Shown: positions 6,362-20,255, numbered from the stretch's first letter. The stretch is 64,000 nucleotides of DNA from an uncultured Ureaplasma sp. (GCA_947039515.1 CAMQYY010000001.1:62001-126000); one strand, 5' to 3'. Translations and numbers: made by a program. The notes: generated by a model from the sequence alone, not told the origin.

Positions 6362-7141
6362 TTAATTAATATAGGTAATAATATTAGGTTCTGTTCATAT
6401 AGTTTCCAAAATTGTTTTGGCTGATCCAGATGCAGATATTTTATTAACTATTGGAAATGTAGCTGCAAAACCTCCATATTGATCTGATGTCCCCGTTGGA
6501 ACTCATTTATAAGGAAAGTCTAAATTTGTTAGAGCTGTAAATATAACACTTTGTCCTGTTGCTGGAGTAAAAGATGCTGAAATAGAAACTTCTGAAGTTG
6601 GAAATTTTAAAGTTTTTAAAACTGATGTACTTCCCATAAAACTTTTAGAAGTAAATTCAACATTTAACCCACTTTTTTGCATATCAAGAGATTCTAAATT
6701 AGGAATATCTTTAAAAATATTAGGACCAATACTTTTAATATTACTAGAAAGTTCAATACTTTTTATTCTTGCTTTAACTTCAGGAGTAAAAGCATTATCA
6801 GGAATTCCGGTAAGTTCAGTTAAATCACTAGCTCTAATAATACCTTTTAATTTCTCATTATTACCTGCTGCTGCATCATTCTTATCTAAAATCTCTGTAA
6901 TAATTTTAGATGTGAATTGAAAATCACTATTCCCAGGATCATTTAAATTAGGTTGATTTATTGAATCATTAATAGCAGTAATTTTAGTTTGATCAAAAAC
7001 TCAAAGAGTTACAATTGAAGTTGTTATAGGAATAGCAGTTAAAAGAAGTACACTAAATATAGTAAAAATTGTTTTTTTCTTTTTATCAATTTGATTCTTT
7101 TTCTCAATTTGATTCTTTTTCTCAATTTGATTATTTTTCAT
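6362..7141 (-). CDS. Hypothetical membrane-anchored protein with LRR/BspA-like segment and N-terminal NQIEKK repeats
   Basis: 260-codon frame: MKNNQIEKKNQIEKKNQIDKKKKTIFTIFSVLLLTAIPITTSIVTLWVF...IPDNAFTPEVKARIKSIELSSNIKSIGPNIFKDIPNLESLDM... Confidence 0.7.
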
Positions 7142-7208: not shown

Positions 7209-8147
7209 CTAACGCTTAGTTTTATCAAAAGGTAAACCTAATGCTGCAGGATATAAGGATTTTTTACTAAAGATTACTAAAAATAATAATGAAAGCACAT
7301 ATGGTATTGTTCTTAATAATTCTCTAATATAAGTTAACCCTTCAATATTAATTAAACTGTTTGAATCAAAAATTTCAAAAATAATTGCAAATACAAATGA
7401 TGAAACAATTACTAAAGGCATTTTTCAAGACCCAGCAATTAAAATCGCTATTGCTAAGAATCCTAAACCATTAACTTCACCATTAAAAGTGATAGGGCTT
7501 CTTAACATAAATATAGACCCAGCTAAACTAGCTAATGCACCTGAAATTAAAATTCCAATTCATTTAATTTTATCAACATTAATCCCTTGAGCATCAATAG
7601 CATTAGGATTTTCACCAACAGCTCTAAATCTTAATCCAAAAGCAGTTTTATGAATAAAGAATCATAAAGCAATAAATATTAAACCAATAATAACGAACAT
7701 AATTAATGTACTACCAAAAATGTTTGTATCTCCTATTTGGAAAATAGGTACATAATCTGATTTTAATTTATTGGAATTACCATTTGAAATAATTGGTCCC
7801 AAAATTGGACTTAAGAAAGTTGCTAATCCAGCAAATAATAAATTAATAGCTACCCCTGAAATAACATGATCACTCTTAAGCTTAATTGTTAAGAAGCCGA
7901 ATAAACCACTTGATACGACTGAAAAGACCATTGAAAGAATCATAGGAATAACAAATGTTCCATTACCCAAAGGAAAGAATATCATAGCAAAGATAGAAAA
8001 GGTTAAAGCACCAAAGATCATTTGTCCATCAATAGAAAGATTAACAATTCCTACTTTTTCAGAAAAATAACCAGATAGTGAAGCTGCACCTAATATTAAA
8101 AACATGAAAAGGATACTTTCAATTAAACTTGTAACTGTACTTAGCAT
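7209..8147 (-). CDS. ABC transporter permease (BMP/nucleoside-type, RbsC/YufQ-like)
   Basis: ORFs 7209-7421 and 7662-8147 in one frame. GILISGALASLAGSIFMLR..., GxxAxNPxAIDAQGINV motifs of branched-chain/sugar-type permeases. Part of a collinear operon. Confidence 0.85.
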
Positions 8148-9802
8148 TATTGTTCATCTCCATTTCCATCAATAAATTCATCAACATCGTCGAAATCTTT
8201 ATTTTTAACTATTCGAGTTAATTTTTCACTACTTTTTTTATCTATTTTTAACTTCTCAATTTTATTAAGTCATTTATTAGAAAGATTTTCAAATTTAGAT
8301 TCATTATTAACATTTCTAGATAATCTATTTTTTAAAAAATTATCTGATGATTTTTTATAATCGTTAGCTTTACGAGTTCTTGAAATCATATCAATTTTTA
8401 TTTTTTCAATCTTAGCTCTTTGATTTGAATTATATTTTGTTAAATCCTCATCAATTTTTAAATTCTTATTAGTGCTAATAATTTGATATTCTGATTCAGG
8501 ATTTAATTCTTTTTCAATTTTTATTTTATTTAGATTGAATCTGAAATCATTAAAAATTTCACTTCGTTCCTTTTGATAATTTTCAACAGCATTTTTTTGT
8601 TCTTCTGTTAATTCGCCTTCATTTTTCTTAATATTCATTTGAATAAATTTATATTTAGAAATTAAAGAATCCATTCTATTATCAAAATTTTCTAATTCTT
8701 CTTTTGATTTATTACCATATTTTTTTGAAAGAAATAAACTCATAGGTTTGAAATCAAAGAAGACAACTGAAACAGCTGCTCCTAGCATAATAAAACCAAG
8801 AATAACATTTGTAAATACTGGTGTTGTTGGTAAGAATGGAGATGATGCTTGAAATAAACCTAATAAAGCACTAACTAAAAGTGTTCCAAATGGGTTTCCA
8901 GTTGCTATTAATCCAACAGCCATTCCATTAAATCCTTCAAGTGGGACTGATGATGATGTTATTGATATTGGAATAAAAGTATTAAGTGATGTATATAAAA
9001 CAGCGCCTAACAATCCAGCAATAGCACCACTTATAGCAAATGAAGATAATTTTAAAAGTTTAACATTATAACCAAAATTAAAAGATGCTTCTTCTGACTT
9101 CCCTACTGATTTTAATTTATGACCAAATGTTGTAAATTTAAAGATAACTCAAATAAAAATACCAACAATTAAAGTAATAATAATAGCAGGTAGTCATCCC
9201 CCAAGTTCACCAGCTTGTAGCAAAGCATTTGAATTAAAATTCTCAGATGATGAAAATTTTGTTGGATCATTTGGAAAAAATTCACCAATAATGAATTTTG
9301 AAATAAAAAATAAAACCCAATTTAATAATAATGAACTAATAACTTCATTAACATTAAAATATATCTTTAACAATCCAGTTGAAGTAGAAATTATAGAGGC
9401 TGATAACATTGTTAAAAATATTAAGAAAATTGGTCCTCATCCTAATAGCGCTTCATTAGGAATGGAATTGATTATTGCTAAAGCAACCACACCTGACATT
9501 AACATTTGACCTGAAATACCAATATTAAAAATACCGGCCTTCTTTGCAAAAATAAAAGAGAAGGCACTTAATGCAAAAATAGATGTATTAATAATTCATG
9601 ATTCTCATTCAATAGCACCTTCAGAGAATAGTTTTTGAATTAATTCAATTGGATTAATTCCAAACATAGTTGCAATTAAAACAGAAACAATAATTGATGC
9701 TAAAATAGAAAGTGAAACAACTATTATTGTTTTAGAAGTTGTTTTTCTACTTCTAGAATAAAGAAGTGATTCAATAGCTAAAGTAGAACTAAGACTTTTC
9801 AT
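8147..9802 (-). CDS. ABC transporter permease (BMP/nucleoside-type) with a long charged C-terminal extension
   Basis: ORFs 9605-9802, 9194-9409 and 8270-9013 share one frame. Permease core is followed by about 130 charged residues. Stop overlaps the next start (TAATG). Confidence 0.85.
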
Positions 9803-11614
9803 TTATAATTCCTTTCCAGCGAATAGTTCACCAATGTGAGCTTTTGTCATAATATCTTTATTACCGACTTCAATAAAATGACCATTGTGAATAACTGCAA
9901 TTTTATCTGCCAAAGCTAATATTTCATCTAATTCATATGAAATTAATAAAACAGCGTTACCTTTTTCTTTTTCACGCATGATTTGATAATGAACATATTC
10001 AATAGCACCTAAATCAAGACCTCTTGTTGGTTGAACCATAATAATTAATTTATGTTCATTAGAAATTTCTCTTCCAATAATTAATTTTTGTTGATTTCCA
10101 CCACTTAATAATCTTGAAGGGGCTGTTCCTCTTGTTGTTCCTCTAATATCATATTTTTGAATAATTTTTTTTGCATATTCATCAATTGATAATTCATTAA
10201 TAAAACCTTTTTTTGAAAAAGGTTCTTCATCAATTTTATTAATAACAATATTAGTTTTAATAGGCATATCAAGAATCAATCCATACTTATGTCTATCTTC
10301 TGGAACATTACTAATGCCCATATTTAATCTCTTTTTAATAGACATATTAGTAATATCTGTATCTAAAAATTTAATAACAGAAGTTTTATCTTTTACAATC
10401 CCATTTAAAATTAAGGCGAGTTCTGTTTGACCGTTACCTTCAACACCAGCAATAGCAAAAACTTCACCTTCTCTTATTTTAAAATCTATTGTATGACCAT
10501 TACTTTGAAATTCTTTTTTAAAATTAGTAATTTCATTAATTTTTTTATCAATTTTCATTTCCAATGGAGATGAACTTTTAACTTCATTTTTTTCTTTCAA
10601 CAAATCTAATTTCTTTTCAAGATTATTAAAAAGTCTTTTTTTAATATCATCAATTCGATCATCAATTGAATTTAATTCACTAATATGTGTTCTATTATTG
10701 TCAATTTGTCTTAATTTTGCTTTTTTATTAATAAGACTTCTAATTTTTTTTACATCTGGAATTAAACTAAATACTTTTGCTGAACTTGATACTGTTAAAT
10801 TTTTAACATCTAAAACAACATCACCAGGTTCATTATCACTATTATTTTTAACTTCAACGATTTTTTTACCAACCATTAAAGATGCCATTTCATCAACTGT
10901 TTTATCTTTAACAGCAAAAGTATCAATTAATTCTCCATGTCTAATAACAGTAGCATTATCAGCTATTTTTTTAATTTCATTAAATTTATGAGTGATAATA
11001 ATAATTGTTTTACCTTGCTTTTTAAAGTTTGAAAGCATTTTTAAAAATTGTTCAATTTCATCATCACTTAAAACAGCTGTGGGTTCATCAAAAATTAAAA
11101 TATTTGCATTTCTATATAAAAGTTTTAAAATTTCAGTTTTTTGCTGTTGTCCAACAGATAAATTTGAAATTTTAGAATTAATATTTAGGTTAAAATTATA
11201 TTCACTAATTAGAGCTTTTATTCTTTTTTTAGAATCTTTTGTTTCTAATAAAATCCCATTTGTATCTTCAACACCAAGAATGATATTTTCAAAAACAGTG
11301 TAATTTTGAACAAGTTTAAAATGTTGATGAACCATTCCAAGTCCAGCATTATTAGCATCCATAGCAGAATTAAAAAATACTCTTTTATCATTAATTAAAA
11401 TTTCACCAGAGTCAGGTGTATATAATCCAAATAAAATTGACATTAATGTTGATTTACCAGCACCGTTCTCACCAATAATTGTATGAATTTCATTTTCTCT
11501 AACATTTAAAGTAATATTAGTATTAGCTTTAATTTTTCCATTTAAAAATGTTTTATAAATGTTATTCATTTTAATAGCATATTGAGGTGGTATTTTTTTG
11601 TTTTCAACATTCAT
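9803..11614 (-). CDS. ABC transporter ATP-binding protein, double ABC cassette (BMP/nucleoside-type)
   Basis: Two nucleotide-binding domains: GENGAGKST/LSVGQQQ...LIFDEPT and GVEGNGQTE/LLSGGNQQK. 603 aa. Confidence 0.93.
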   Translation of the reverse strand: MNVENKKIPPQYAIKMNNIYKTFLNGKIKANTNITLNVRENEIHTIIGENGAGKSTLMSILFGLYTPDSGEILINDKRVFFNSAMDANNAGLGMVHQHFKLVQNYTVFENIILGVEDTNGILLETKDSKKRIKALISEYNFNLNINSKISNLSVGQQQKTEILKLLYRNANILIFDEPTAVLSDDEIEQFLKMLSNFKKQGKTIIIITHKFNEIKKIADNATVIRHGELIDTFAVKDKTVDEMASLMVGKKIVEVKNNSDNEPGDVVLDVKNLTVSSSAKVFSLIPDVKKIRSLINKKAKLRQIDNNRTHISELNSIDDRIDDIKKRLFNNLEKKLDLLKEKNEVKSSSPLEMKIDKKINEITNFKKEFQSNGHTIDFKIREGEVFAIAGVEGNGQTELALILNGIVKDKTSVIKFLDTDITNMSIKKRLNMGISNVPEDRHKYGLILDMPIKTNIVINKIDEEPFSKKGFINELSIDEYAKKIIQKYDIRGTTRGTAPSRLLSGGNQQKLIIGREISNEHKLIIMVQPTRGLDLGAIEYVHYQIMREKEKGNAVLLISYELDEILALADKIAVIHNGHFIEVGNKDIMTKAHIGELFAGKEL

Positions 11615-11650: not shown

Positions 11651-13153
11651 CTAAATTTTTGGAATATTAATTCCGAGTGATTTTAGAAATTCAAAAATAC
11701 CTTCGTATGTTGATTGAGAAAAGGAAGCATCTTTTAATAATGTTGTAGCGGTCGATAAGGAAACTAATATTTTTTGATTATAAGCTTGATTATCTGGCAC
11801 TATAAAATTCTTTTTATTCATTGCTGGGATTGTTGCTTCTGGAGAATAGGGAACAAAATTTTGAATTAAAGGAAATTCTGAATCAACACCATATTTAAAT
11901 GTTGTAGGAACTCCTTTTTCAGTAGCAATATAAATCATACCAGCAGGTGTTGAAAGGAAATTTAATTTCTCATTATAAGCATCAATAACTCCTGGAATAG
12001 CTAATGCTTCTTGAAGATATTGCTCACCTGTCTTTGAAACACCAACAGAATTATTTTCTAAATTAGCAACACTATGGCTACCAAATCCACCGATTCCATT
12101 TTCATCAATTAGTTCTTGATAATAAATATTGGTTATATCATTGCCATCTTTGTCTATAACTTTTGGAGCTACATTACCATTTTGGATAATTTCTAAAATT
12201 TTCTTTCCAACTACATCTAATCTTTTTAAAGATGACATTTGAATAATTTTCCCATTACCAACATGACTACCATTTCTTAAAGGTAGATTAATATTGATAT
12301 CATTTTCAATAGCTGAATCAGCACCAATTAAAATTGTTCTTAAATTGTTAAATTTTCTAATCGAACTAAGTGCATCACTTATTTGTGGACCTGCTACTGG
12401 AAAAAATAGATCAACACCATTAACACCTGGTGTTTTAGGATTAAGATATAAATCAGAAATTTCGATACCACCACCAATTCCAAAATTATTATTTAAAAAA
12501 TTATTATTATCAATTGTTTTATGTTCAATAGGAAGATATTTATTTGTGTTTGTTGGAATTCCATTATAAGCGGGTAAGATTACTTCATTAAAAAATTCAA
12601 TCCCTTGTTGAAAACCACCTAAGAAAGATGTAACAGATGAAAAAGTAGCACCACCATAGCCAGCTCATTTAAAACTTTTTCTATTTAGAGTATTTGGATT
12701 ATCATCAAAATTTTCAGGCATAAAATATTCTTGATTTTTATTTAATAAAATAGCTGATGAAATTGCTGTTTGGAAACTTCCTAAATCACTTCTAAATGAA
12801 ACTGAAGCAGTATTAGCGCTTGCTAAAGTTGGTATATCACCACCAAATGGTAAGATTTCATCCAAAAAGATGAAACCTATATCTTTAAATATTTTTGAAT
12901 TAGCTGAATTATAAGCTAATTTAATTGGACTAGAATGTGAAAAACCTGCAGCCATTATTATTTCAGCATCTCTTTTTGCTAAGGTTTTATATGAATCAAG
13001 AGTACCTATTGGAGTATTTGCTGTTGGATTTGCATAATAATTAAATATAGCTCCTGAATTCATATTTAGAACATAACCAGTGGAAACTGCTGTTATAGTA
13101 GCAATTGAACCTAACGTTAATCCTAAAAATAAAGGCATTTTTTTATTAATCAT
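11651..13153 (-). CDS. BMP-family (PnrA-like) ABC substrate-binding protein, copy 1
   Basis: ORFs 11651-12238 and 12665-13153 in frame. Contains GGFQQGIEFFNEVI, GVDLFFPVAGPQISDAL, TILIGADSAIEN, QMSSLKRLDVVGKKIL. Adjacent to matching ABC genes. Confidence 0.85.
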
Positions 13154-13436
13154 TTCAGACTTCCAAAAATTTAATATTTAACTTTAATAAAACCATTATA
13201 AACATAATTATGAAATAAAGCAATATAAAAAAAAATAAAATAATATTACTATTCAATTCAATAAATAAATTTCATCTATAATATGAAAATTGTGTCTTTA
13301 AATATTTTATAATTAATTAACTATAAGACAATTAGATTAGAATAATAAGTATAAAAATTTATTATTTGAGCATGTCTTTTTTTTAAAAATATGTGTTAAC
13401 TAAGATTATTTTATTTCTTTATTTTCAGATCTTTAA

Positions 13437-14939
13437 CTAAATTTTTGGAATATTAATTCCAAGTGATTTTAGAAATTCAAAAATACCTTCATATGTTGAT
13501 TGAGAAAAGGAAGCATCTTTTAATAATGTTGTAGCAGTCGATAAGGAAACTAATATTTTTTGATTATAAGCTTGATTATCTGGCACTATAAAATTCTTTT
13601 TATTCATTGCTGGGATTGTTGCTTCTGGAGAATAGGGAACAAAATTTTGAATTGAGGGAAATTCTGAATCAGAACCATATTTAAATGTTGTAGGAACTCC
13701 TTTTTCAGTAGCAATATAAACCATACCAGCAGGTGTTGAAAGGAAATTCATTTTCTCATTATAAGCATCAATAACTCCTGGAATAGCTAATGCCTCTTGA
13801 AGATATTGATCTCCTGCTTTTGAAACACCAACAGAACCATTTTCTAAATTACCAACGCTATGGCTACCAAATCCACCAATTCCATTTTCATCAATTAGTT
13901 CTTGATAATAAATATTGGTTATATCATTGCCATCTTTGTCTATAACTTTTGGAGCTACATTACCATTTTGGATAATTTCTAAAATTTTCTTTCCAACTAC
14001 ATCTAATCTTTTTAAAGATGACATTTGAATAATTTTCCCATTACCAACATGACTACCATTTCTTAAAGGTAGATTAATATTGATATCATTTTCAATAGCT
14101 GAATCAGCACCAATTAAAATTGTTCTTAAATTGTTAAATTTTCTAATCGAACTAAGTGCATCACTTATTTGTGGACCTGCTACTGGAAAAAATAGATCAA
14201 CACCATTAACACCTGGTGTTTTAGGATTAAGATATAAATCAGAAATTTCGATACCACCACCAATTCCAAAATTATTATTTAAAAAATTATTATTATCAAT
14301 TGTTTTATGTTCAATAGGAAGATATTTATTTGTGTTTGTTGGAATTCCATTATAAGCGGGTAAGATTACTTCATTAAAAAATTCAATCCCTTGTTGAAAA
14401 CCACCTAAGAAAGATGTAACAGATGAAAAAGTAGCACCACCATAGCCAGCTCATTTAAAACTTTTTCTATTTAGAGTATTTGGATTATCATCAAAATTTT
14501 CAGGCATAAAATATTCTTGATTTTTATTTAATAAAATAGCTGATGAAATTGCTGTTTGGAAACTTCCTAAATCACTTCTAAATGAAACTGAAGCAGTATT
14601 AGCGCTTGCTAAAGTTGGTATATCACCACCAAATGGTAAGATTTCATCCAAAAAGATGAAACCTATATCTTTAAATATTTTTGAATTAGCTGAATTATAA
14701 GCTAATTTAATTGGACTAGAATGTGAAAAACCTGCAGCCATTATTATTTCAGCATCTCTTTTTGCTAAGGTTTTATATGAATCAAGAGTACCTATTGGAG
14801 TATTTGCTGTTGGATTTGCATAATAATTAAATATAGCTCCTGAATTCATATTTAGAACATAACCAGTAGAAACTGCTGTTATAGTAGCAATTGAACCTAA
14901 TGTTAATCCTAAAAATAAAGGTAATTTTTTATTAATCAT
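13437..14939 (-). CDS. BMP-family ABC substrate-binding protein, copy 2
   Basis: Near-identical to copy 1 and the same 1503-nt length. Confidence 0.85.
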
Positions 14940-15190
14940 TTCAGACTTTCAAGAGTTTAATATTTATTTTAAACAAAACTATTATAAACATAATTATAAA
15001 ATAAAGCAATATAAAAACAAACTAATATTAGTGTTGAATTTAATAAATAAATTCTATCTATATTAATTAAAATTCACATCTTTAAAGATTATGATTAAAT
15101 AAGCATAAAATAATTAAATTAAAATACCATATGAAAATAAATACAAAAATTATTATTTGATTATTTTATCTTTTAATTTTAGATCTTTAA

Positions 15191-16693
15191 CTAAATTTTT
15201 GGAATATTAATTCCAAGTGATTTTAGAAATTCAAAAATACCTTCATATGTTGATTGTGAAAAGGAAGCATCTTTTAATAATGTTGTAGTAGTTGATAAAG
15301 AAACTAATATTTTTTGATTATAAGCTTGATTATCTGGCACTATAAAATTATTTTTATTCATTGCTGGGATTGTTGCTTCTGGAGAATAGGGAACAAAATT
15401 TTTGATTAAAGGAAAATCTGAATCAGAACCATATTTAAATGTTGTAGGAACTCCTTTTTCAGTAGCAATATAAACCATACCAGCAGGTGTTGAAAGGAAA
15501 TTCATTTTCTCATTATAAGCATCAATAACTCCTGGAATAGCTAATGCCTCTTGAAGATATTGATCTCCTGCTTTTGAAACACCAACAGAACCATTTTCTA
15601 AATTACCAACGCTATGGCTACCAAATCCACCAATTCCATTTTCATCAATTAGTTCTTGATAATAAATATTGGTTATATCATTGCCATCTTTGTCTATAAC
15701 TTTTGGAGCTACATTACCATTTTGGATAATTTCTAAAATTTTCTTTCCAACTACATCTAATCTTTTTAAAGATGACATTTGAATAATTTTCCCATTACCA
15801 ACATGACTACCATTTCTTAAAGGTAGATTAATATTGATATCATTTTCAATAGCTGAATCAGCACCAATTAAAATTGTTCTTAAATTGTTAAATTTTCTAA
15901 TCGAACTAAGTGCATCACTTATTTGTGGACCTGCTACTGGAAAAAATAGATCAACACCATTAACACCTGGTGTTTTAGGATTAAGATATAAATCAGAAAT
16001 TTCGATACCACCACCAATTCCAAAATTATTATTTAAAAAATTATTATTATCAATTGTTTTATGTTCAATAGGAAGATATTTATTTGTGTTTGTTGGAATT
16101 CCATTATAAGCGGGTAAGATTACTTCATTAAAAAATTCAATCCCTTGTTGAAAACCACCTAAGAAAGATGTAACAGATGAAAAAGTAGCACCACCATAGC
16201 CAGCTCATTTAAAACTTTTTCTATTTAGAGTATTTGGATTATCATCAAAATTTTCAGGCATAAAATATTCTTGATTTTTATTTAATAAAATAGCTGATGA
16301 AATTGCTGTTTGGAAACTTCCTAAATCACTTCTAAAAGAAGTTGTAGCAGTATTAGCACTTGCTATAGCAGGTGTATCACCACCAAATGGTAAGATTTCA
16401 TCCATAAGAATGAAACCTATATCTTTAAATGTTTTTAAATTAGCTGGATTATAAGCTAATTTAATAGGACTAACATGTTGAAATCCTGCAGCCATTATTA
16501 TTTCAGCATTTCTTTTTGCTAAAGTTTTATATGAATCAAGATTTCCTATAGGTGTATCTGATGTGGGATTTGCATAATAATTAAATATAGAACCGATATT
16601 CATATTCAAAATATAACCCGTAGAAACAGCTGTTATAGTAACAATTGAACCTAGTGTTAATCCTAAAAATAAAGGCAATTTTTTATTAATCAT
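15191..16693 (-). CDS. BMP-family ABC substrate-binding protein, copy 3
   Basis: Same length. Central region identical to copies 1 and 2; N-terminal third diverged. Confidence 0.85.
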
Positions 16694-16795: not shown

Positions 16796-16836
16796 AAAAA
16801 GTTTTATCCATATGGATAAAACTTTACCTTTTATTA
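16796..16836. terminator. Intrinsic terminator-like hairpin
   Basis: aaagttttatccatatggataaaacttt stem-loop between the BMP gene and the end of the ABC-2 operon. Confidence 0.7.
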
Positions 16837-19331: not shown

Positions 19332-20255
19332 CTATTTCTTTTCAGCTCTTAGTTTTTTTAATAATACAGTAGAATATTTACCAATTTTATCAAACACTAA
19401 TAATTTTTCATCAATAGTATTACCTGGATTAGCTTTTAGTTTATTAATATTATCCTTTAATTCTTCAATAGACATTGATTCTAAATCTTCAACATCTTCA
19501 TTTATTACACTAGGTGGTGGTTCTTTTGCTATTTCAGCTTCTTTTTTTGATTTTTCTTCTACTTCTCTTAATGCATCTCTTTGAGCATTTTCAATCAAAT
19601 CTTGTTCTTCCTGTAATCTTATTGCTTCTAATTGCATCGCTTTTTGAGCGTTCTCTTCATCAATTCTTGCTTGTTCTAATTGAAATTTAGCATTTTCTTC
19701 AGCTATTCTTGCTGTTTCTAATTCAGCTTCTTTTGCATGATCAAATGCAGGAACAATAGGTTCTGGTGATGGAGTAAAAGAATTAAAATCAGAACTTCCA
19801 AATGATGAAGTTGGAGTTGAAGCAAATGGATCATTATCACTACCAAATGATGAAGATGAAGAAGAACCAAATGGATTATCATTAAATGATGAAGTTGGAG
19901 TTGAACCAAATGGATTATCATTAAATGATGAAGTTGGAGTTGAGCCAAATGGATCATTACCACTACCAAATGATGAAGATGAAGAAGAACCAAATGGATT
20001 ATCATTAAATGATGAAGTTGGAGTTGAACCAAATGGATTATCATTATTAAATGATGGAGGCGGAATTAAAGATAATGAGTCTTCACTCACTAATGCTGAT
20101 GTAGAGCTAAACGGATCGAATAAAACTTCTTCTGCCGGTGGAGCTTCATTATTACTAAATGAAGAATTTTCTTGATTTAAATAAGATGTATAATTTGCAT
20201 TATAATCATTTTTAATAGTTTTATTATTATTGGATGAACGATCTTTTTTTGCCAT
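19332..20255 (-). CDS. Repeat protein: low-complexity NPFGS/STPTSSFND array followed by a charged helical region
   Basis: 307-aa uninterrupted ORF. No obvious signal peptide or TM segment. Confidence 0.8.
   Translation of the reverse strand: MAKKDRSSNNNKTIKNDYNANYTSYLNQENSSFSNNEAPPAEEVLFDPFSSTSALVSEDSLSLIPPPSFNNDNPFGSTPTSSFNDNPFGSSSSSSFGSGNDPFGSTPTSSFNDNPFGSTPTSSFNDNPFGSSSSSSFGSDNDPFASTPTSSFGSSDFNSFTPSPEPIVPAFDHAKEAELETARIAEENAKFQLEQARIDEENAQKAMQLEAIRLQEEQDLIENAQRDALREVEEKSKKEAEIAKEPPPSVINEDVEDLESMSIEELKDNINKLKANPGNTIDEKLLVFDKIGKYSTVLLKKLRAEKK
19730..20045 (-). repeat. Degenerate coding tandem repeat (NDNPFGSTPTSSF / NPFGSSSSSSFGS / NDPFGSTPTSSF)
   Basis: Repeated ccaaatggattatcattaaatgatgaagttggagttgaa and aaatgatgaagatgaagaagaaccaaatgg modules visible in the DNA. 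Confidence 0.85.

Follow-up and report, generated by a model that had tools for sequence, protein, structure and literature searches.

Domain order points to natural circular permutation in a PnrA/BMP branch encoded by a tandem Ureaplasma transporter array

We describe a branch of the PnrA/BMP substrate-binding proteins that has undergone natural circular permutation, encountered as three tandem genes in a 64,000-nucleotide stretch of DNA (henceforth termed the window) from an uncultured Ureaplasma sp. (GCA_947039515.1 CAMQYY010000001.1:62001-126000). Judged by the order of their sequence elements, the encoded proteins have a PnrA fold that is circularly permuted by nature. The locus as a whole is very probably a PnrA/BMP-type importer locus in which the binding proteins are permuted and their genes are tandem duplicates with a middle part homogenised by gene conversion. 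Natural circular permutation is rare among ABC-transporter binding proteins, with one case, TpMglB-2, in the literature searched. Permuted and linear sisters occur here in one bacterial family, with the same type of operon and mostly the same mapped ligand residues, so that the consequences of permutation for tethering, export and binding become directly comparable. Annotation is affected as well, since a domain with a displaced part earns only a weak score from standard models. In addition, the linear mycoplasma relative P48 controls uptake of conjugative elements and nucleosides (PMC12892991), and the topology of its relatives is therefore of practical interest.

The window has a G+C content of 24% and lies within contig C1 (269 kb) of a 687-kb, 7-contig genome. 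TGA codons are read through in its genes and translation table 4 therefore applies: each binding-protein gene contains a single TGA read as tryptophan, and table 11 cuts each gene in two. The three binding-protein genes lie directly upstream of genes for an ATPase and two permeases, the neighbourhood typical of the family. In transcription order, the features are:

16798..16825, minus strand: hairpin resembling a terminator (stem of 12 pairs followed by a T-run), lying between copy 3 and the ABC-2 gene upstream of it
15191..16693, minus strand: copy 3 of the Bmp/PnrA-like substrate-binding protein, 500 aa, the first to be transcribed and, as judged by its domains, circularly permuted (table 4 ORF; PF02608 E=4.7e-8; swapped-order HMM domains)
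13437..14939, minus strand: Bmp/PnrA-like substrate-binding protein copy 2, 500 aa, a mosaic whose N-terminal part equals copy 1 and whose residues 354-425 equal copy 3 (table 4 ORF; segment comparison; HMM domains)
11651..13153, minus strand: Bmp/PnrA-like substrate-binding protein copy 1, 500 aa, adjoining the ATPase gene (table 4 ORF; PF02608; HMM domains; AlphaFold model)
9803..11614, minus strand: ABC transporter ATPase with two nucleotide-binding domains, adjoining the array (PF00005 in two stretches; relatives with the same gene order)
8147..9802, minus strand: permease 1, BPD_transp_2 (PF02653 E=4e-42)
7209..8147, minus strand: permease 2, BPD_transp_2 (PF02653 E=7.9e-37)

The hairpin is the probable upstream limit of transcription of the array; terminator-like sites number 5 in the region, with 1.1 expected. 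Promoter-like sites are no commoner than in shuffled sequence (39 found versus 40.6 expected), so separate promoters for the individual copies cannot be claimed. Bmp adjoins ATPase and permease genes in 14 of 16 relatives examined. Relatives of the same genus carry a single Bmp before the same ATPase and permeases, which makes the three-gene array lineage-specific. These three are the only Bmp genes in the genome, which is 86% complete.

Copy 1 matches PF02608 with E=5.2e-9 and 36 bits, above the cut-off of 24.1, and thus belongs to the family. The tandem BMP genes named in a preliminary description of this DNA are accordingly present as three PF02608-type genes, yet they do not encode ordinary BMP proteins. 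The best PF02608 stretch begins at profile position 52, and the match is weak because the canonical N-terminal segment sits at the other end of the chain. In an alignment with linear mycoplasma homologues, this segment, consisting of the first strand, a D-x-S-F-[N/S] motif and the first helix, is found at the C-terminus (KILVSLSTATTLLKDASFSQSTYEGIFEFLKSLGI), and the N-terminal membrane anchor joins straight onto the canonical second strand. As the beta1-motif-alpha1 element is C-terminal instead of N-terminal, we regard the proteins as a permuted variant rather than as canonical PnrA/BMP members. The parts concerned are:

11654..11782, minus strand: relocated beta1-motif-alpha1 element of copy 1, residues ~458-500, with the motif DASFSQ at 11714-11731 (HMMs, Pfam pieces, PnrA profile, motif counts, model strand and helix)
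13440..13568, minus strand: relocated beta1-motif-alpha1 element of copy 2, motif at 13500-13517 (HMM domains, motif counts)
15194..15322, minus strand: relocated beta1-motif-alpha1 element of copy 3, motif at 15254-15271 (HMM domains, motif counts)
13061..13138, minus strand: predicted N-terminal membrane helix of copy 1, residues 6-31, without lipobox cysteine and in the same place in the other copies (sequence; model helix 6-31, low confidence)

Profile comparisons in both directions recover the swapped order. An HMM built from nine linear family members matched all 12 permuted proteins on which it was tested as two domains in swapped order, with model positions ~89-97 to ~411-472 coming first and ~40-74 at the C-terminus (iE 1e-4 to 2e-10), and linear controls were collinear. 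The reciprocal HMM of permuted proteins gave the mirror-image order in linear proteins outside both training sets. The Pfam Bmp model matched the C-terminal pieces through its positions 2-44, with E-values of 0.0007-0.03 that fall below its cut-off. Real C-terminal pieces scored 14.8-34.8 bits, compared with 8.1 at most in 1000 shuffles. When the permuted profile was aligned with S. pneumoniae PnrA, positions 444-468 matched chain residues 27-51, 63-143 matched 80-147 and 206-312 matched 178-283, with a whole-chain E of 1.2e-7 and weak individual stretches; in C. thermocellum Lbp, profile positions 422-472 matched chain residues 9-61. The motif is C-terminal in 20 of 20 permuted proteins and 0 of 31 linear ones, and N-terminal in 0 of 20 and 30 of 31, respectively. 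Searches with copy 1 alone were less productive: in the PDB, its sequence returned chance matches only (viral glycoproteins, E about 0.2), and a contig scan with this lone query gave no confirmed relatives, whereas an alignment of permuted proteins succeeded as query.

It could be argued that no permutation took place, and that the N-terminal element was lost while a similar C-terminal extension arose convergently, as was raised for T. pallidum MglB-2 (PMC4990184). The element is indeed short, about 35 residues, but its sequence similarity is detectable both ways and includes a D-x-[S/G]-F motif within the element in 20 of 20 permuted proteins, which leaves convergence highly improbable and circular permutation as the preferred reading.

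The AlphaFold model of copy 1 (pLDDT 82.9, pTM 0.85) agrees with this order, with a C-terminal strand at residues 462-465 and a helix at 478-492 in blocks of mean pLDDT 76-94; strand pairing was read solely from the order of secondary-structure elements. The best fold matches of the model in Foldseek are BmpD and PnrA with bound nucleosides. The TM-scores to PnrA are modest (0.36-0.57), which fits expectation for the sequential comparison of a permuted and extended protein without being proof. We propose that the relocated element would fold back to complete lobe 1 of its own molecule and thereby restore the usual nucleoside pocket.

At the other end of the chain, the window copies lack the cysteine that would follow the signal peptide in a lipobox; many homologues from genus g11 (Ureaplasma-type) have it. 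Loss of the lipoprotein pathway was rejected as the cause of the missing lipobox, since the genome encodes both Lgt and LspA. In a separate observation, genera g5 and g6 (10 genomes, some of them single-contig) gave no match to Lgt, LspA or Bmp, and these lineages seem to be without both the lipoprotein pathway and the Bmp transporter.

The named relatives of the window protein come from uncultured Mycoplasmataceae, Ureaplasma records and Ureaplasma sp. ES3154-GEN, which places the source among the Ureaplasma-related mycoplasmas. Among the homologues compared, the permuted order is confined to this part of the family, occurring in 20 of 20 homologues of the Ureaplasma-related group and in 0 of 31 elsewhere. 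Across 95 family genomes, full-length collinear matches to the permuted model were obtained in the window's genus, in g11 and on one contig of genome G025, and split, out-of-order matches in many genomes of other genera. A wider scan of 248 genomes across the order revealed, among the matches listed, no full-length permuted match outside those groups. Outgroup proteins in other families are linear, as are the solved PnrA/BMP structures, and the linear order is therefore probably ancestral. The best core tree requires two changes between the linear and permuted states. Constraining the permuted proteins together gave a p-AU of 0.205, by which a single origin is not rejected, nor thereby shown. 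None of the homologues examined carries the element at both ends. The Bmp contig of G025 (L052/L036; G025:C81, 3.2 kb), assigned to genus g3, nests inside the clade of the window's genus, and the g3 genome G007 carries a linear Bmp; either a mis-binned contig or horizontal transfer would explain this placement.

The ligand can be approached through P48 of M. agalactiae, in which D78, F81, N82, D166, F274, G299, D323 and K341 line the pocket (PMC12892991). As read from the alignment, P48 F274, G299, D323 and K341 correspond to F224, G255, D279 and K310 of the window copies, and D78 and F81 to D475 and F478 within the relocated element. N82 is matched by Ser479 in the window copies and by Asn in several of the Ureaplasma-type homologues; no position of the aligned copies corresponds clearly to D166. 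Every nucleoside-contact position that can be mapped (F224, G255, D279, K310, D475, F478, plus S479) is the same in all three copies. Since P48 binds nucleosides broadly and is required for their uptake (PMC12892991), we infer nucleoside uptake for the window locus, which would form the substrate-binding side of a PnrA/BMP (P48)-type nucleoside ABC importer. The three copies would then bind the same ligands, and they probably raise the dosage of binding protein for one transporter.

The three copies are 93-98% identical overall, and the identity is unevenly distributed:

12093..12796, minus strand: 704-bp block common to all copies, copy 1 instance, residues ~120-353 (exact identity)
13879..14582, minus strand: 704-bp identical block, copy 2 instance (exact identity)
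15633..16336, minus strand: 704-bp identical block, copy 3 instance (exact identity)
12093..13081, minus strand: 989-bp tract in which copy 1 is identical to copy 2 (13879-14867) (exact identity)
13663..14582, minus strand: 920-bp tract in which copy 2 is identical to copy 3 (15417-16336) (exact identity)

The three-way block arises because the two longer pairwise tracts of 989 and 920 bp overlap there. The preliminary description had placed a block of about 700 bp in all three copies and near-identity of copies 1 and 2 over about 12092-13080; the block is exact over 704 bp, with left edges one base away from those first given, and copies 1 and 2 turn out to be fully identical over the slightly shifted 989 bp. 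Copy 2 is a mosaic: before the core it follows copy 1, over residues 354-425 it matches copy 3 without a difference, and in its last ~75 codons it is mostly nearer copy 1 than copy 3. Within the core, ~148 synonymous sites show zero changes; the flanking segments have diverged, with dS of 0.09-0.40 for pairs outside their own identical tract and of 0.12-0.40 in most segments. In the variable parts dN/dS is ~0.5 or lower and never exceeds 1. The spacers between the genes, 251 and 283 bp long, can be aligned only in part.

When 74 variable sites were scattered at random over 1500 bp, three-way runs reached 279 bp at most over 20,000 trials, versus 704 observed. A GENECONV comparison had been suggested at the outset, and GENECONV-style shuffles of the polymorphic columns reached the observed tracts in 0 of 20,000 cases for copies 1/2 and likewise for copies 2/3. 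The tracts are thus longer than the flanking divergence predicts, synonymous sites included. Because identical tracts stand beside diverged flanking codons and spacers, the simplest reading of the sequences is that the three genes are older duplicates that later underwent gene conversion, rather than a fresh triplication. This would have involved at least one tract between copies 1 and 2 (989 bp) and at least one between copies 2 and 3 (920 bp), and the pattern of core and edges may have arisen from tracts kept inside alignable coding sequence. An identical core with differing edges is the default outcome of conversion tracts bounded by unalignable spacers. The original proposal that conversion homogenises the core is therefore backed by the exact tracts, the lack of synonymous change in the core and the diverged flanks and spacers. 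Its extension to a diversified ligand range or antigenicity is not borne out, with all mapped contact positions identical between copies and dN/dS below 1; ligand diversification was rejected on the pocket residues.

Tandem Bmp genes recur within the family, as seen by comparison of several loci. Ureaplasma sp. ES3154-GEN carries a tandem permuted pair (L060 3710-7101) with a near-identical core: the two genes are near-identical over the window-equivalent residues 123-295 and far more diverged outside. With the window's core, residues 120-353, as test region, 20 synonymous codon differences and 171 identical codons lie inside it, compared with 59 and 120, respectively, in the remainder (p about 1e-7). 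The dip in synonymous divergence is clear in L060 and mild in L092, and no sharp homogenised core was found in the tandem arrays L089, L090, L091, L093 and L094. The last of these (G065:C7), from another genus, comprises three tandem linear Bmp genes that are 59-68% identical and is an independent triplication without a homogenised core. In the window and in L060 the block starts near residue 120, which may mark a lobe boundary or simply a well-conserved stretch at which exchange can start in these two cases.

Three other accounts of the identical block deserve consideration. Conversion could be delimited by lobe under selection, holding the second lobe identical while lobe 1 diversifies freely, be it for antigenicity or for interaction with the permease. 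The block corresponds roughly to the second lobe, as deduced from the fold order, and its N-side border lies near residue 120 in the window, close to that of the Ureaplasma pair (near residue 122). These are, however, two cases, mid-gene homogenisation is expected wherever unalignable spacers bound the tracts, and both dN/dS below 1 and the invariant mapped pocket residues speak against diversification, so that we consider selection of this kind unlikely. Recent unequal crossing-over of two tandem genes, which is quite unlikely, would render conversion unneeded by creating a hybrid middle copy with the N-half of copy 1 and the C-half of copy 3. Copy 2 shows the hybrid order expected, with the sequence of copy 1 before the core and that of copy 3 over residues 354-425, but its final ~75 codons are nearer copy 1 than copy 3, and the exact 704-bp block between copies 1 and 3 is still unexplained. 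Crossing-over should moreover have duplicated the spacer, yet the two spacers are diverged and unequal in length, on which ground a simple unequal crossover was rejected.

We also considered that the block might be an assembly artefact, i.e., a collapsed or over-polished repeat, as exact identity over 704-989 bp exceeds ordinary short-read length. This is very unlikely, given that every copy has flanks and spacers of its own, which the 269-kb contig resolves, and that a tandem pair of another species has a similar, imperfectly identical homogenised core. The existence of three copies is supported by their unique spacers and flanks; the linkage of N- and C-termini across the identical blocks rests on the assembly.

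Gene conversion between older duplicates of a permuted binding protein can be set beside several known systems. With the PnrA/BMP proteins (PF02608), such as M. agalactiae P48 (PMC12892991), S. pneumoniae PnrA, T. pallidum PnrA and Borrelia BmpA/BmpD, the window proteins share homology over the fold, an operon type of binding protein, ATPase and two permeases, and, as read from the alignment, most nucleoside-contact positions. They differ from canonical members in the C-terminal position of the first strand, D-x-S-F motif and first helix, in the missing lipobox cysteine and in the replacement of the pocket Asn by Ser. The bmpD-bmpC-bmpA-bmpB locus of Borrelia burgdorferi (PMC13325309) likewise holds several PnrA/BMP paralogues in a genome-reduced bacterium. 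Those paralogues have the canonical fold and are diverged, and members that have been characterised bind different ligands (thymidine versus purines), whereas the window copies are permuted, 93-98% identical and alike in their mapped pocket. In gene conversion among bacterial surface-antigen genes (review PMC4534519), local exchange between related genes yields mosaics, as in the window; compared with those systems, conversion in the window would homogenise a transporter component, and no silent cassettes or expression site were seen.

The closest topological parallel is T. pallidum MglB-2 (Tp0684, Type Ic / Cluster Bc, PDB 5jx2), a natural circular permutant that binds glucose; its authors suggested that permutation may suit tethered proteins because the anchored N-terminus is taken away from the ligand residues (PMC4990184). 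The window proteins resemble it as permuted, membrane-tethered type I/cluster B binding proteins with N-lobe strands at the C-terminus, and their permutation also separates ligand contacts, here D and F, from the anchor. In MglB-2, however, three N-lobe strands are relocated and show poor sequence similarity to their canonical counterpart, whereas the window proteins have relocated one strand and one helix with detectable similarity. By sequence order and predicted secondary structure, the window proteins have the permuted type I fold of Type Ic/Cluster Bc; they do not share the cut site or homology of MglB-2, their closest folds being BmpD/PnrA with 5jx2 at rank 43. They thus work like the Type Ic/Cluster Bc protein TpMglB-2 but are not members of its class. 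The MglB-2 paper (PMC4990184) describes the sole precedent in the literature searched, and no permuted PnrA/BMP protein was found there, which is no proof of novelty as most subscription papers fall outside that literature. A broader idea, which we hold doubtful, is that tethered binding proteins were permuted independently at least twice, in glucose-binding MglB-2 and in this nucleoside-binding group, each time with ligand residues of the first strand leaving the anchored N-terminus, and that conversion in arrays preferentially keeps the second lobe identical. If true, at least two independent permutations would support permutation as an adaptation to tethering.

Two further genes near the locus may be mentioned. 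Directly after permease 2, window positions 6362-7141 encode a short protein that is hydrophobic in an N-terminal segment and weakly matches BspA-type leucine-rich repeats, slightly below the Pfam cut-off. Upstream of the ABC-2 transporter pair, the gene at 19332-20255 encodes a 307-aa protein with NDNPFGSTPTSSF / GSSSSSSFGSGNDPFG repeats that derive from an alternating 45+39 nt unit.
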